From a virus, in the IMG/VR virus record IMGVR_UViG_3300025168_000395, positions 1-30,862 of that record: a stretch of DNA of 30,862 nt, one strand, 5' to 3'. Positions 3,682 to 9,009 of the stretch are shown here, in pieces (position 1 is the stretch's first letter; every line of letters begins with the position of its first letter). A model generated the notes under the pieces. The model was not told the origin of the DNA and ran no database searches. It was given only the letters and a program-made list of their open reading frames with translations. A program made the position numbers and the translations under genes.

Positions 3682-3867
3682 ATGACTTTATCCGATTATC
3701 TTGCCGCCAATGACATCACGCGAGCAGAATTTGCCGCAAAAATCGCGGTAAGTCAGGGTTTCGTGTCCATGCTTTGCAACGGCGTGAAGCGCCCGTCCCT
3801 GAAAACGCTGGCTGACATTCAGCGCGTGACAAAGGGCGCGGTCGCGCTTGAGGACTTTCTTCAGTGA
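3682..3867 (+). CDS. Cro/YdaS-like helix-turn-helix protein
   Basis: A 61-aa protein consisting almost wholly of a helix-turn-helix: ITRAEFAAKIAVSQGFVSML then VKRPSLKTLADIQRVTKG. The size and layout match Cro- or YdaS-type antirepressors. It is the first gene of the rightward early operon and divergent from the XRE repressor. The operator palindrome ends 11 bases before its start, overlapping where a Shine-Dalgarno would be, which hints at tight control. Its stop overlaps the next gene's GTG start. Confidence 0.75.
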   Translation: MTLSDYLAANDITRAEFAAKIAVSQGFVSMLCNGVKRPSLKTLADIQRVTKGAVALEDFLQ

Positions 3868-4184
3868 GCGCGCGCAACAAGCAGCGCGGCTATGAACTTG
3901 AGAAAGAGACTGCTGATTTCTGGCAGTCGCACGGCTTTGACTGCGCCCGCGTGTTTGGTTCTGGCGCTTATAAAAACCAGCTTGGCGACGACTACGCTGG
4001 CGACCTTCGCTTGGAAGGTTTTTCAGTAGAGGCCAAACGTAAAAAATCCGGTTTCAAATTTCTGATGGATTCACTGGCTCAAGACGACGCCGATCTACTC
4101 GTTGTTCGCCAGGATCGTGCGCCGCGTCTTTATGTACTGCGCGAAGAGACGTTGCTGACGCTGATGCGTGAGGCGAAGCAATGA
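3864..4184 (+). CDS. Hjc-like PD-(D/E)XK nuclease
   Basis: A 106-aa protein starting at GTG 3864, overlapping the Cro-like stop (GTGA). The layout is that of small archaeal-type Holliday-junction resolvases and phage PD-(D/E)XK nucleases: N-terminal basic helix with E13, then RVFGSGA, then D47 in YAGD, and E56-A-K58 in the next strand. These provide the D...ExK metal site. It likely cuts branched DNA during phage replication or recombination. Alternatively, as the direct neighbour of the modification genes, it could cut unmodified DNA. The next gene starts within its stop codon. Confidence 0.7.
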   Translation: MSARNKQRGYELEKETADFWQSHGFDCARVFGSGAYKNQLGDDYAGDLRLEGFSVEAKRKKSGFKFLMDSLAQDDADLLVVRQDRAPRLYVLREETLLTLMREAKQ

Positions 4185-4861
4185 TCCATTACCACGGCAC
4201 GCCTTTGACGCCGCGCTCTGAGCTACAAAAATTAGCGGGCAAGCACTTCTGCGTCAGCTTCGCGGCACCGCAAGATGCTGATTGGTGTCTCACACACGCG
4301 CAGAGCGTCATGTGGGACAACGGTGCTTTCAGCCTGCACACGCAAGGCAAGCAGCCCGACTGGCCCGCTTTTTATGATTGGGTCGAAGCGCGCGCCGCGC
4401 ACCCACATTGGGCGATTGCGCCTGATGTGATTGAGGGGTCAGCCGAAGACAACCTATCGCTTGCCGCCGCATGGCCGCACCGCCGTGATTGTGCAGCGGT
4501 TGTTTGGCATTTGCATGAACCATTTGAGCAGATGGCGCGCCTGCTTGACCTTGGCTTTGACAAGTTGTGTTTCGGCAGTAGCGGAGCCTACTGGCAGGTG
4601 GGTTCTGAGGCATGGGAGCGCCGCGTCGATGCGGCGTTTAATTGGCTGGCACAGCGCGGGACGCTGCCGTGGATACACATGCTGCGCGGTCTCGCACTAT
4701 GCGGAGATCGCTGGCCGTTCGCTAGTGCCGATAGCACCAACGTCGCCCGTAATTTCAAAGATAGCAATACATGTCCTGAACGGATGGCGCGTCGCATTGA
4801 TGCCGTGCAGTCGCCGCTTGGGTGGTCGCCACAGCCTCAAACCATGGAGTTGTTCGCGTGA
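4181..4861 (+). CDS. TGT/DpdA-like 7-deazaguanine transglycosylase
   Basis: A 226-aa protein, ATGA-overlapping the nuclease gene. The pattern fits the tRNA-guanine transglycosylase fold seen in phage DpdA-type enzymes: D46-N-G-A-F50 corresponds to the DSGGF-type substrate loop, followed by AIAPD82VIEG, VVWHLHEP (108-114), LCFGSSG, IHMLRGL (165-171), and ASAD184STN as the likely second catalytic Asp. Such enzymes exchange guanine for preQ0/preQ1-type bases in DNA (DpdA) or tRNA (TGT). It is much shorter than bacterial TGT and lacks an obvious zinc site. The adjacent queuosine-precursor transporter strongly supports a deazaguanine substrate. Whether DNA or tRNA is the target cannot be told from sequence. 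Confidence 0.65.
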   Translation: MIHYHGTPLTPRSELQKLAGKHFCVSFAAPQDADWCLTHAQSVMWDNGAFSLHTQGKQPDWPAFYDWVEARAAHPHWAIAPDVIEGSAEDNLSLAAAWPHRRDCAAVVWHLHEPFEQMARLLDLGFDKLCFGSSGAYWQVGSEAWERRVDAAFNWLAQRGTLPWIHMLRGLALCGDRWPFASADSTNVARNFKDSNTCPERMARRIDAVQSPLGWSPQPQTMELFA

Positions 4862-5364
4862 ACCGATATGTTTCGCTTGTTGGATTTATCGCCACCATTC
4901 CGGCGGCGAATTGGCTGATTGGCAACGTCGGCACTGTTTGCGTTCCCAACGGTCCATGCCTCGTGCCGGTCGCGCCGGGATTGATGGCCCCGAGCGGCGT
5001 TCTCTTGATCGGCCTCGCTCTTGTCCTGCGCGACGCCGTGCATGAGCAATCAGGCGCGCGCTGGGCTATGGGCGCGATCATTGTCGGCGCTGGCCTGTCC
5101 GCGCTGATTGCGCCGCCAGCTCTTGTCGTCGCAAGTGCCGCAGCCTTTCTGTTGTCTGAAGCCGCCGACATGGCTGTCTACACGCCGCTGCGCAAGCGGC
5201 ATTTGATCGCGGCTGTTTTTGCAAGCGGCGCAGTTGGCTCCTTGGTTGACAGCGCCCTGTTCTTGTTTCTGGCTTTTGGTTCGCTCGATTACCTAACGGG
5301 TCAGGTCGTCGGCAAACTGTGGATGACCGCGCTAGCGGCTGCCTACTTGGCGGTGCGCCGATGA
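4858..5364 (+). CDS. VUT/YhhQ-family queuosine precursor transporter
   Basis: A 168-aa integral membrane protein starting at GTG 4858, overlapping the previous stop (GTGA). It has about five to six hydrophobic segments and VUT-family landmarks: IPAANWLIG near the start, LRDAVHE (about 61-67), a central SAAAFLLSEAADMAVYTPLR run, AVGSLVDSALFLFLAFG, and VGKLWMTALAA at the end. YhhQ-type members import preQ0/preQ1. The length matches the short phage/actinobacterial type rather than the longer E. coli protein. It probably supplies the base used by the upstream transglycosylase from outside the cell. Confidence 0.85.
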   Translation: MNRYVSLVGFIATIPAANWLIGNVGTVCVPNGPCLVPVAPGLMAPSGVLLIGLALVLRDAVHEQSGARWAMGAIIVGAGLSALIAPPALVVASAAAFLLSEAADMAVYTPLRKRHLIAAVFASGAVGSLVDSALFLFLAFGSLDYLTGQVVGKLWMTALAAAYLAVRR

Positions 5365-5579
5365 TCTGCCCGGACTGCGGGCTGCTTCGTCATCCAAAAA
5401 CCGATTGCAAATTTATCGAATGCCCGGATTGCGAAGGGCATGGCCGCGTTGAGGAAGAAATCACACACGGCGGAGTTGACAACAACGGCCCGTGGCAAAG
5501 CTACCGCACCCGCTGGACGGAGTGCGACCGATGCCAAGGGTGGGGTGAAATTGCAGCAGAAGGAGAAGATGATGAGTAG
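5361..5579 (+). CDS. Cys-rich zinc-ribbon/DnaJ-like small protein
   Basis: A 72-aa protein, ATGA-overlapping the transporter stop. Three CxxC knuckles are visible: CPDC at the start, CPDCEGHG in the middle and CDRCQGWG near the end. The latter two carry the CxxCxGxG-type spacing of the DnaJ cysteine-rich domain. It probably binds one or two zinc ions. Function is unknown; it could be a chaperone-like partner of the neighbouring proteins. Its end overlaps the Sak4-like gene by 8 bases. Confidence 0.6.
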   Translation: MICPDCGLLRHPKTDCKFIECPDCEGHGRVEEEITHGGVDNNGPWQSYRTRWTECDRCQGWGEIAAEGEDDE

Positions 5580-6330
5580 TTTGAAAGATATTATTTCCGG
5601 GCAGAGTCTCAGCCCGCCAATTGTTTTGCTCTATGGCCCACCTGGCGTCGGCAAAACGACTTTCGCAGGCAATGCCCCAAAACCTATTTTCATTCAAACG
5701 GAAGACGGTGCTGGCGTTGTTGGCGCTGATCGTTTCCCGCTGGCGGAAAGCTACGACGCCATCGAGGCGCAGCTTGGCACGCTGGTCAAAGAAGACCACG
5801 ACTTTAAGACGCTGGTGATTGACTCTCTTGATTGGCTGGAGAGTTTGGTCTGGGCAAAGGTGTGTGAAGCCCAAGGCTTGAAAAATATTGAAGATGCTGG
5901 ATATGGCAAAGGCTATGTCTTCGCACTCGACTTCTGGCGGCGGTTTCTGAACGGCGTTGCGGCACTTCGCAAGCAGCGCGGCATGGCGGTTGTGATGATC
6001 GCGCACAGCCACATTCGCAAGTTCGATGACCCTGCCGGCGAACCCTACGACAGGTTTGAAATTAAGCTGCACCGCAAGGCGGGCGACCTGTGCATGGAGG
6101 CGTCTGACCTGATCGGCTTTGCCAACTACCGCACGGCGACTAAGCAAATTGATGGCGGCTTTGGCCGCAAGATCACACGCGCGGTCGGCACTGGCGAGCG
6201 CGTGCTGTTCACCTCAGAGCGCCCCGCATTTATCGCAAAATCACGCTACCCCGTACCGCATGAGTTGCCGTTGGAGTGGTCGGCGCTTGTGAATGCCATT
6301 GTTGGAAAGGAAAAGAAAGATGCAGCTTAA
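5572..6330 (+). CDS. Sak4-like RecA-fold ATPase, phage recombinase
   Basis: A 252-aa ATP-binding protein of the AAA_24/Sak4 type. ATG 5572 is preferred over ATG 5569 because AGGAG (5561-5565) is then six bases upstream. Walker A is G22-PPGVGKTT30, Walker B TLVID84SLDW, and a sensor-like AVVMIAHSHIRKF follows. Sak4 proteins are short RecA relatives that promote single-strand annealing in phage recombination. The next gene is a DUF669 protein, the usual partner and probable single-strand binder, overlapping by 11 bases. This pair and the exonuclease at 6852 form a phage recombination set. Confidence 0.85.
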   Translation: MSSLKDIISGQSLSPPIVLLYGPPGVGKTTFAGNAPKPIFIQTEDGAGVVGADRFPLAESYDAIEAQLGTLVKEDHDFKTLVIDSLDWLESLVWAKVCEAQGLKNIEDAGYGKGYVFALDFWRRFLNGVAALRKQRGMAVVMIAHSHIRKFDDPAGEPYDRFEIKLHRKAGDLCMEASDLIGFANYRTATKQIDGGFGRKITRAVGTGERVLFTSERPAFIAKSRYPVPHELPLEWSALVNAIVGKEKKDAA

Positions 6331-6802
6331 CTACACGGTGGGCAGTTCGCCCGCACCGCAGAATGATTTTCAGCCGTTGGCTGCTGGCACCTATCCCGGT
6401 CAGATTGTGGAGTGGGCCGAGCATACATCCAAGTCGGGCAACCAGTGCCTTAAGCTACAGGTGCGGCTTGAGAATGGCCGCGTGCTTTTTGATTATCTGG
6501 TGATGCAGGCGGCTGACGCCAGCAACCCCAAAAGCGCGACAGCAATTGAGATTGCAAAGCAGCGGTTGGATTCAATCGGCTCGGCGCTTGGGCTGCAAGT
6601 CATTGCACAAGCTGATGACCTGATCGCCAAACCGTTGTCGGTCAATGTCGGCGTGCGGCCACCGGCCAACGGTTACGACGCCTCGAACGAAATCAAAGGA
6701 TATGCAGCGGCAACACAACCCAGCCAGGGGCAGCCCCCCGCCGTTGCATCCACGCCACCGGCCCCGCCGGTTGCCCCCAGCCAATCAACGCCTTGGTCTT
6801 AG
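6320..6802 (+). CDS. DUF669 family, probable ssDNA-binding protein
   Basis: A 160-aa protein starting at ATG 6320 behind GGAAAGGA. The core (FQPLAAGTYPGQIVEWAEHT, then LKLQVRLENGRVLFDYLV, then the helical AKQRLDSIGSALGL) matches the DUF669 pattern found beside Sak4 or Erf recombinases. The last 35 residues are rich in Pro, Gln and Ala and probably unstructured, like an SSB tail without the acidic tip. It likely coats single-stranded DNA for the Sak4-like annealase. An intrinsic terminator follows immediately. Confidence 0.75.
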   Translation: MQLNYTVGSSPAPQNDFQPLAAGTYPGQIVEWAEHTSKSGNQCLKLQVRLENGRVLFDYLVMQAADASNPKSATAIEIAKQRLDSIGSALGLQVIAQADDLIAKPLSVNVGVRPPANGYDASNEIKGYAAATQPSQGQPPAVASTPPAPPVAPSQSTPWS

Positions 6803-6808
6803 GGAGCA

Positions 6809-6851
6809 GGGGGTGGGCTTCCTCCCTTCGCCCACCCCCGGCGTCTTTTTT
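6809..6851 (+). terminator. Intrinsic terminator abutting the next start codon
   Basis: GGGGGTGGGC (6809-6818) and GCCCACCCCC (6830-6839) form a perfect 10-bp stem with an 11-base loop, followed by GGCGTC and six T (6846-6851). The T-tract touches the ATG of the exonuclease gene at 6852, so that gene has no Shine-Dalgarno. Partial termination here would set the ratio between the recombination genes and downstream genes. Confidence 0.8.
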
Positions 6852-7802
6852 ATGGAACTAGATTTTTTTGATCCCACGCTTGCGGCGGCTGATGCTGCGC
6901 TAGAGAACGCGGAGAGCGGAAAGCCGCAGCGCGGCTATCTTGGCATGAGCGGCATCGGCGATTGCCCGCGCAAATCGTATTACCAATTCTATGCGGCGGG
7001 GCAGCAGCCCTTCGCCGCCAAGACTTTGAAGAATTTTGCAGACGGCCATCGCACTGAGGACTTGGTGATCGAGCGGCTGCGGGCCGTTGATGGTCTGACG
7101 ATCATTGACCGCGATCCTGACACGGGCAGGCAGCTTGAGGTCAGCGACCACGAAGGTCACTTTCTGGGACACCTCGACGGCGAGGCGTTTGGGCTGCTGC
7201 AAGCGCCAAAGACGCCGCATGTTTTCGAGGTCAAATGCACTTCAGAAAAGGTGTTTGCGCGGTTCCAGAAGTGCAAGGAAAAGCACGGCGAGAAGGCTGC
7301 GCTGCGCGAATGGAATGAGACGTACTACGCGCAGCATCAGGTCTACATGCTCTATCGCGGCAGAACGCGCGGCTGGATGGTTGTCGCCACGGCTGGCGGA
7401 CGCGATTGGGATTCGTGTCGCACTGACTTTGATCGCAAGGCGGCAGAGTTTTATTCGGCCCGCGCCGCCGACATCATCTTTACGCCTGACGCCCTGCCGC
7501 CAAGGATTGCGGACTCTCCTGATTTCTACAAATGCCGTTGGTGCCAGTTCTCAAAGATTTGTTACGGCGAGACTGCCGCCAATCGCAACTGCCGCACATG
7601 CGTGTGGTCTGCGCCGGTCGAGAATGGCGGCTGGTTGTGCAATCGCCATGACAAATCGCTAACGGCTAGTGAGCAGATCGAGGGCTGTAGCGATCAGCGT
7701 TTCCGCCCCGTGCTTGTGCCTGGCGAAGTCGTCGAGGTGCACGACGACCGCATCGACTACCGCATGACCAATGGCGAGTTGTGGTCCGACGAGGGTGCGT
7801 GA
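6852..7802 (+). CDS. RecB/Cas4-like PD-(D/E)XK exonuclease
   Basis: A 316-aa protein with the RecB-family nuclease signature: G-H-L-D109-G, then F-E126-V-K128, then Q161-H-Q-V-Y165 (QxxxY). The N-terminal SGIGDCPRKSYYQF resembles the Cas4/AddB-type start with Cys and Arg. The C-terminus carries several cysteines (CRWCQFSKIC, NCRTC, LC, GC) that could hold an Fe-S cluster, as in Cas4 and AddB. It probably resects DNA ends for the Sak4/DUF669 pair. ATG 6852 is taken as the first Met after the terminator; it lacks a Shine-Dalgarno, so a leaderless or internal start remains possible. Confidence 0.8.
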   Translation: MELDFFDPTLAAADAALENAESGKPQRGYLGMSGIGDCPRKSYYQFYAAGQQPFAAKTLKNFADGHRTEDLVIERLRAVDGLTIIDRDPDTGRQLEVSDHEGHFLGHLDGEAFGLLQAPKTPHVFEVKCTSEKVFARFQKCKEKHGEKAALREWNETYYAQHQVYMLYRGRTRGWMVVATAGGRDWDSCRTDFDRKAAEFYSARAADIIFTPDALPPRIADSPDFYKCRWCQFSKICYGETAANRNCRTCVWSAPVENGGWLCNRHDKSLTASEQIEGCSDQRFRPVLVPGEVVEVHDDRIDYRMTNGELWSDEGA

Positions 7803-8158
7803 CACCGCGCGGCCTGTGCGTGGCGTGTTGGAAAAATGAGCGCGGTTTTGGATACCGCAAGGGTCTGCGGCGGGCCGTCTGGTTTTGCTCGAGGGACCAT
7901 CAAATTCGGTTTGTGAAGGAGTTTCTAATGGTTGATTGGACGAAGGAAGAAGACGAGATGCTGCGGCAAGCTGGTCAGGCGGGCGGCGAGTATCTCGACA
8001 GCATTGGCGTCACAGACTTGGGGCGGCTGAACAAGACGCAGTGGACGATGTTTTTGCGTTGCTTGGTTGGGCGCTTGGCAGAGGTGCGGCCCGATTGGCA
8101 TCGCAAGTGGGAAGCGCAGATTGATAGCGATCCCGACGATCTGGCGTTGCCGTTCTGA
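7799..8158 (+). CDS. DUF6511-like phage protein
   Basis: A 119-aa protein starting at GTG 7799, overlapping the previous stop (GTGA). The N-terminus has a Cys pair (CVAC), an aromatic GFGYRKGLRRAVWFCS segment, and then the helical GQAGGEYLDSIGVTDLGRLN core, which matches my memory of DUF6511. Function is unknown. A second start, ATG 7928, has a strong AAGGAG (7918-7923 region) and would give a 76-aa form without the Cys part, so two products may be made. The methyltransferase ATG overlaps its stop (TGATG). Confidence 0.6.
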   Translation: MTPRGLCVACWKNERGFGYRKGLRRAVWFCSRDHQIRFVKEFLMVDWTKEEDEMLRQAGQAGGEYLDSIGVTDLGRLNKTQWTMFLRCLVGRLAEVRPDWHRKWEAQIDSDPDDLALPF

Positions 8159-8996
8159 TGGCTCAAAAAAAAACTTCGCCGTCCTTGACCTCTTTAGCGG
8201 CATCGGAGGATTCAGCCTTGGGCTTGAAGCAGCCGGACCTTTTCGGACAGTCGCCTTTTGTGAACAAGACGCCTTCTGCCAAGCCGTCCTCAGAAAGCAT
8301 TGGCCCAACGTCCCAATTTACGACGACATCAACTCATTCGACTGGCAGGGCGACTGCGACATCATCACGGGCGGCTACCCATGCCAACCCTTCTCCGTTG
8401 CCGGGAAGCAAAAAGGCGCGGCAGATGACCGCCACCTCTGGCCGTCGATGTTTGAAATTATTAAACACAAAAGACCCCGCTGGGTCTTGGCTGAAAACGT
8501 TGCTGGTCACATCGCAATGGGCCTCGACGAGGTGCTGTTTGACTTGGAAAGCGAAGGCTACACCGCGAGGCCGCTTGTTATTCCAGCTTGCGCCGTCAAT
8601 GCCCCGCACAGACGCGACCGCGTCTGGATTGTGGCCCACGCCGACCGGGCAGGACAATGCACAGGTCAGAGGGCAGGGCAAAACGATCGGAACGAATCGC
8701 GGCACGACGCTGGGCGGCGCGGTGCGGATGTGGCCGACGCCAGCAGCACACGAGGCGCGGCTGGGTTATCAGGACAGGACGACGGGCAAAAAGGGATCGC
8801 AGAAAAGTTTGACGACCGAAGTCATAGACCAGTTGGGTGGTCGGCAAGCGACAACTGGGCAATTGAACCCGCAGTGGGTCGCCTGGTTGATGGGATTTCC
8901 AACCGGGCACACCGACTTAAAGCCCTCGGAAATGCCGTCGTCCCGCAAGTCGTCACGCAAATCGGACGCGCAATCCTCGCGGCAGAGGGCGCGTGA
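8158..8996 (+). CDS. dcm: C5-cytosine DNA methyltransferase (start needs -1 shift)
   Basis: The enzyme methylates cytosine C5 in DNA, probably for protection from host restriction. Motifs appear in order: FAVLDLFSGIGGFSLGL (I), GGYPCQPFS with the catalytic Cys (IV), AENVAG (VI), HRRDRVWIVA (VIII) and RLKALGNAVVPQV (X). The target-recognition region is short. The domain frame begins at about 8172, but the coupled ATG 8158 (TGATG with the previous gene) is in the other frame. Slipping back one base on the A9 run (8165-8173) gives MAQKKN-FAVLDLF. In-frame alternatives are TTG 8121 or ATG 8067, both deep inside the previous gene. A missing A in the assembly is also possible. Confidence 0.85.
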
Positions 8997-9009
8997 TGTC
9001 AGCGAGTAG
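8158..9009 (+). CDS. Overlapping +1-frame ORF spanning the methyltransferase
   Basis: From ATG 8158 without a frameshift the frame stays open for 283 codons across the entire methyltransferase gene, ending at TAG 9009. The first half is low-complexity Ser/Thr-rich. The second half has features I recognise from phage proteins linked to cytosine methyltransferases: TWKAKATPRGRLLFQL, SGLWPTPTGQD (from 8623), a second MWPTP block, and LNPQWVAWLMGFPTGHTDL (from 8863). The same DNA encodes methyltransferase motifs VIII and X in the other frame. It may be a true overprinted gene or a by-product of constrained DNA. Expression is unproven. Confidence 0.35.
   Translation: MAQKKTSPSLTSLAASEDSALGLKQPDLFGQSPFVNKTPSAKPSSESIGPTSQFTTTSTHSTGRATATSSRAATHANPSPLPGSKKARQMTATSGRRCLKLLNTKDPAGSWLKTLLVTSQWASTRCCLTWKAKATPRGRLLFQLAPSMPRTDATASGLWPTPTGQDNAQVRGQGKTIGTNRGTTLGGAVRMWPTPAAHEARLGYQDRTTGKKGSQKSLTTEVIDQLGGRQATTGQLNPQWVAWLMGFPTGHTDLKPSEMPSSRKSSRKSDAQSSRQRARDVSE

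Follow-up and report, generated by a model that had tools for sequence, protein, structure and literature searches.

How a phage that encodes a base-exchange enzyme is supplied with the base to be inserted is the question raised by two overlapping genes in IMG/VR record IMGVR_UViG_3300025168_000395, a linear contig whose full 30,862 bases (30.9 kb) are referred to here as the window. On the plus strand, a dpdA-like gene for a TGT-fold base-exchange enzyme (4181..4861, 226 aa, ATG start) runs into a gene for a short VUT/YhhQ-family transporter (4858..5364, 168 aa, GTG start), with the four bases GTGA (4858..4861) serving as both the stop of the first and the start of the second. The initial annotation had described this overlapping pair and read it as a means of importing preQ0 or preQ1 rather than making it; the two open reading frames and their overlap were confirmed, and the interpretation is examined below.

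The record is probably a phage fragment. An integrase gene (19-1383) together with terminase, portal and major head protein genes identifies the window as a tailed phage that is probably temperate, and replication and recombination genes are also encoded. Genes for a Sak4-like annealing protein, an SSB-like protein and a Cas4-type exonuclease follow one another at 5440-7802 (phrog_124, phrog_6015 and phrog_1990). A DNA methyltransferase-like gene at 8158-9009 (phrog_1008, E 4.4e-30) may represent a second DNA modification in the same phage, and PADLOC found no defence model among the window proteins. Directly upstream of the dpdA-like gene, a gene for a RusA/Hjc-like PD-(D/E)XK protein (3864..4184, plus strand; phrog_244, E 2e-10) overlaps it at ATGA, and this nuclease had been proposed as a coupled part of the system. 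That proposal did not hold: a PD-(D/E)XK gene adjoins dpdA in only 2/93 related loci with flanks, and we therefore regard it as a passing neighbor rather than a part of the module.

The identity of the enzyme was assessed from profile and structure searches. In the PHROGs profile search it matched phrog_887, 'queuine tRNA-ribosyltransferase' (E 5.2e-36), and its start at 4181 is supported by a conserved N-terminus, (M/T)IHYHGTP, shared by its relatives, 43 of which were aligned at 40-75% identity. An AlphaFold model built from 44 aligned sequences (pLDDT 89.5, pTM 0.86) has eight barrel strands, and the best 50 VIA matches of this model, with Z 14.4-15.1 over 200-216 residues at rmsd 2.8-4.5, all belonged to the TGT family; they comprise archaeosine TGT, Zymomonas TGT and, from CBASS, the TGT-like Cap10. 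Model and matches together thus indicate a TGT-type (beta/alpha)8 barrel, as had been anticipated. Foldseek alone ranked transaldolase and other barrels ahead, with low TM-score. Pfam returned no family at E up to 1, TGT PF01702 included, no TGT model of NCBIfam was matched, and an hhalign comparison of the DpdA profile with a single bacterial TGT, a poor template on its own, gave no match. PDB sequence searches with either protein of the pair or its profile returned no relevant match (antibody and other weak ones). By inspection of the sequence, neither the Cys-Cys-Cys-His zinc motif nor the C-terminal tRNA-binding part of tRNA TGTs is seen in the 226-aa enzyme.

In TGTs, the general acid/base, base-binding and nucleophilic aspartates are, in order, Asp102, Asp156 and Asp280. 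Three aspartates of the window enzyme follow the same order, and the first and last of them had been singled out from the start. Asp46 in DNGAF (codon 4316..4318, plus strand), the proposed general acid/base counterpart, is Asp in 131/131 non-redundant relatives and lies at the end of a predicted barrel strand; Asp82 in APDV (4424..4426, plus strand), the proposed base-binding residue, is likewise Asp in 131/131; and Asp184 in SADSTN (4730..4732, plus strand), the proposed catalytic nucleophile, is Asp in 123/123 relatives aligned there and closes the last barrel strand (182-184). Each of the three stands at or directly after a barrel strand in the AlphaFold model, and judging from motif order and strand ends, Asp46, Asp82 and Asp184 would correspond to Asp102, Asp156 and Asp280 of TGT.

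The downstream gene matched Pfam Vut_1 (E 2.9e-12, 47.6 bits versus a cut-off of 27.2) and phrog_4899 (E 4.7e-39), which PHROGs lists as unknown function. Its predicted structure (pLDDT 96.2) consists of six long helices (3-23, 48-65, 67-81, 87-112, 116-140 and 146-167), consistent with six transmembrane helices, and its best VIA matches were ECF S-components, a likeness that is only suggestive for a helical bundle at Z up to 10.0. Vut_1 and six helices are also features of E. coli YhhQ, a member of the COG1738 (QPTR) preQ0/preQ1 transporters that is cited as a preQ0 transporter in PMC6884629. The window protein differs from YhhQ in length (168 versus about 220 aa) and falls under the equivalog cut-off of the NCBIfam queuosine precursor transporter (TIGR00697, 33.5 versus 50.95 bits) as well as that of PRK11212. 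In the VUT tree, well-supported branches force at least five changes of label between phage and host, and long branches with unsettled bootstrap forbid a stronger statement.

We then estimated how tightly the two genes are linked across phages. Phage transporter loci were fetched with the transporter as the sole query and no reference to dpdA, and 53 of them had 1.2 kb or more of flanking sequence on each side. In 52 of these 53 loci, a TGT/DpdA gene with the same orientation lay no more than 1.5 kb away, and in the single exception (L086) the transporter is truncated; in a wider non-redundant set, which includes loci fetched by dpdA, the pairing was 55/55. Three DpdA groups are represented among the partners (phrog_887, phrog_15826 and phrog_1279 types) and both gene orders occur. 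Repetition of the pairing with different enzymes and in different orders argues for a functional tie and not for one inherited block. The same pair is found in the isolates Pseudanabaena phage Pam5, Rhizobium phages RHph_N3_2 and RHph_X2_30, Mycobacterium phage StevieRay and Arthrobacter phage Aoka, where a DpdA/TGT-like gene stands beside or near a VUT-family gene in varying order. The RHph_N3_2 genes also overlap by 4 bases, and the DpdA-like proteins of StevieRay (phrog_15826) and Aoka are more distant from that of the window. Elsewhere, transporter copies are truncated (L085/L086) or split across two frames (L082:9983-10539), which suggests that individual contigs contain decayed genes or were assembled wrongly.

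Based on these observations, we consider it likely that the pair is a two-gene supply-and-insert module for placing a 7-deazaguanine (preQ0 or a derivative) in phage DNA. The transporter would supply the infected cell with preQ0 (or preQ1) from outside or add to a pool that already exists, and the small TGT-fold enzyme, using the TGT mechanism with its two aspartates, would put this base in place of guanine in phage DNA. dPreQ0 may subsequently be converted to dADG, as in other dpdA-only phages, and a likely purpose would be to shield thinly spread sites against host nucleases. The analysis establishes the fold, the conserved residues, the coupling of the genes across phages and the absence of synthesis genes, and from there the transporter's substrate, DNA as the target, the inserted base and its protective role are inferred.

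The proposal that the phage imports rather than makes its precursor depends first on which synthesis genes are present. Profile searches of the window record left QueE (phrog_2076), QueD (PF01242), FolE (PF01227) and QueC (PF06508) unmatched, in agreement with the absence noted initially, and this absence is weak evidence from the record alone given that it is probably a fragment. The complete genomes of Pam5, RHph_N3_2, RHph_X2_30, phiLM21 and StevieRay contain none of folE, queD, queE and queC; across whole phage records, QueC, QueD and FolE are each absent from 50/50, and QueE occurs only in two (L012 and L013), both without the transporter. This dpdA clade provides 131 non-redundant loci, 106 of them with the transporter. 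The 25 loci without it have queD nearby in 4, queE in 2 and no recognized helper in 19, so that queD or queE accompanies dpdA in 6/25 loci without a transporter versus 0/106 with one (Fisher p 3e-5, uncorrected for kinship). Helper families were confirmed with curated models, under whose equivalog cut-offs the QueD of L321 and the QueE of L012 score. In two loci, a QueE-like radical SAM gene (L012:8168-8911 and L013:10473-11135) stands where the transporter would be, following a closely related dpdA (69% identical), and in four others (L184, L204, L306 and L321) a QueD-like gene is the sole preQ0 gene adjoining dpdA.

Whether the infected cell depends on import can be considered from the transporter's closest relatives on chromosomes, most of which are alphaproteobacterial. 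Phage-type dpdA does not adjoin 79 of the 80 closest chromosomal transporters, and the exception, in Devosia (L167), looks like a prophage. Conversely, queC lies directly beside the transporter in 52/74 chromosomal relatives with upstream room, and in each of the 40 genomes tested that contain one of the closest chromosomal transporters, both QueC and one or more TGT-family matches are encoded. The transporter family is thus tied to preQ0 metabolism, and its bacterial owners can make preQ0. We had considered these chromosomal transporters as a marker of hosts without preQ0 synthesis, and the presence of QueC in every tested genome led us to reject this use. In Roseovarius atlanticus, an island of bacterial DpdA, DpdB, QueC and a QueE-like radical SAM protein (L096:5784-10531) is followed just downstream by a short VUT transporter that falls in this clade too; outside that island, locus L144 has a similar TGT-QueC layout.

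As a result, the claim of import without synthesis stands for the phage genes but not necessarily for the infected cell, which may well make preQ0 itself. A narrower version of the supply-and-insert module, and not its opposite, has preQ0 made by the host; the transporter would then only relieve a bottleneck while infection proceeds, as queD or queE would in relatives. We give this version a chance slightly short of even. It accounts for QueC and TGT in the genomes of the closest transporters, for relatives that exchange the transporter for one synthesis gene and never the whole pathway, and for two loci that combine the transporter with a short QueC of about 182 aa placed between it and dpdA (L193:3456-4001 and L302:7173-7718). 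It fits less well with the pair carried by mycobacterial phages, as Mycobacterium is without the preQ0 pathway (PMC6884629). For phages of hosts unable to make preQ0, such as mycobacteria, DNA marking might depend on preQ0 from neighboring microbes, a prospect we find rather doubtful; if true, marking would be environment-dependent and protection from restriction would be a community trait.

Returning to the supply-and-insert module as a whole, the target of the enzyme would be DNA rather than tRNA, by analogy with characterized DpdA proteins. Pantoea phage vB_PagS_MED16, whose DpdA lies in the same PHROG neighborhood and is 39% identical over 84% of the protein, has dpdA only and carries dADG in its DNA at about 0.13% of G (PMC8306585), and the genetics of DpdA in CAjan point the same way (PMC6884629). 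MED16 DpdA is longer than that of the window (786 bp gene), and no transporter was found adjoining the MED16 gene. That the enzyme instead inserts preQ0 or preQ1 into tRNA, raising queuosine in host or phage translation, would suit its TGT fold, the tRNA-based name of phrog_887 and the location of chromosomal transporter relatives within queuosine gene clusters. We nevertheless judge this improbable: the 226-aa enzyme shows neither the extra C-terminal part nor the zinc motif of tRNA TGTs, a full-length TGT already exists in the genomes with the closest chromosomal transporters, and in the closest relative for which a measurement exists, the base is in DNA (PMC8306585). That the transporter carries another substrate or exports, with the pairing reflecting something else, is distinctly improbable in view of its near-perfect linkage to TGT/DpdA in phages and to queC in chromosomes, even though it is short, divergent and under the equivalog cut-off, its PHROG has no listed function and certain chromosomal copies belong to operons that make preQ0 and would seem to have no need of import.

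Several findings weigh against the supply-and-insert module. The enzyme matches no TGT model of Pfam or NCBIfam, and the transporter scores under the NCBIfam queuosine-transporter cut-off. Salmonella phage 7-11 and MED16 contain very little modified base, and MED16 DNA is still cut by most enzymes tested; such low levels had little effect or an unclear use. In Mycobacterium phage Orion, which also has dpdA only, no 7-deazaguanine was found in the DNA (PMC6884629).

The initial annotation had considered a salvage-only pairing coupled to a PD-(D/E)XK nuclease in a short-tailed temperate phage notable; its interpretation is supported in part, and the components are not in themselves new. Phages with dpdA only (the group 3 'DpdA only' phages of Hutinet et al. 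2019, e.g. Salmonella phage 7-11), YhhQ homologues in phages and the proposal that group 3 takes up exogenous precursor are all already published (PMC6884629), and, as far as a probable fragment shows, the window resembles group 3 phages in having DpdA without preQ0 or G+ synthesis genes. The window differs from them in a transporter that is coupled to dpdA, and in that this coupling is recurrent. Enterobacter phage EC151 and Seuratvirus clusters likewise combine dpdA with a preQ0 transporter gene (PMC8310023), but these clusters are larger and also contain the synthesis genes folE, queD, queC and queE. In open-licence papers, we did not find the strict coupling, the exchange for queD or queE, or the link between phrog_4899 and dpdA described. 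These patterns make the source of the modified base testable in the largest group of dpdA phages, in which dpdA is accompanied by either a dedicated transporter or a single synthesis gene. They also provide a lead to the function of phrog_4899, and identify isolates whose modification could be compared between cultures with added preQ0 and cultures without.

A separate observation concerns a clade of dpdA homologues that are split over two frames (L056, L060, L066, L072, L176, L177, L179 and others). These share an invariant TGG CCC TTT CGC site immediately ahead of the Asp proposed as catalytic nucleophile, where a +1 shift at CCC TTT C would join the frames; the exact motif is present in 21 viral contigs. 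Close relatives without the extra base have an uninterrupted reading frame. Across seven diverged members, downstream substitutions fall mostly on third positions of the +1 frame (475 versus 209 and 188), which indicates that this frame is under purifying selection, and from its sequence the site looks like a candidate for programmed +1 frameshifting.
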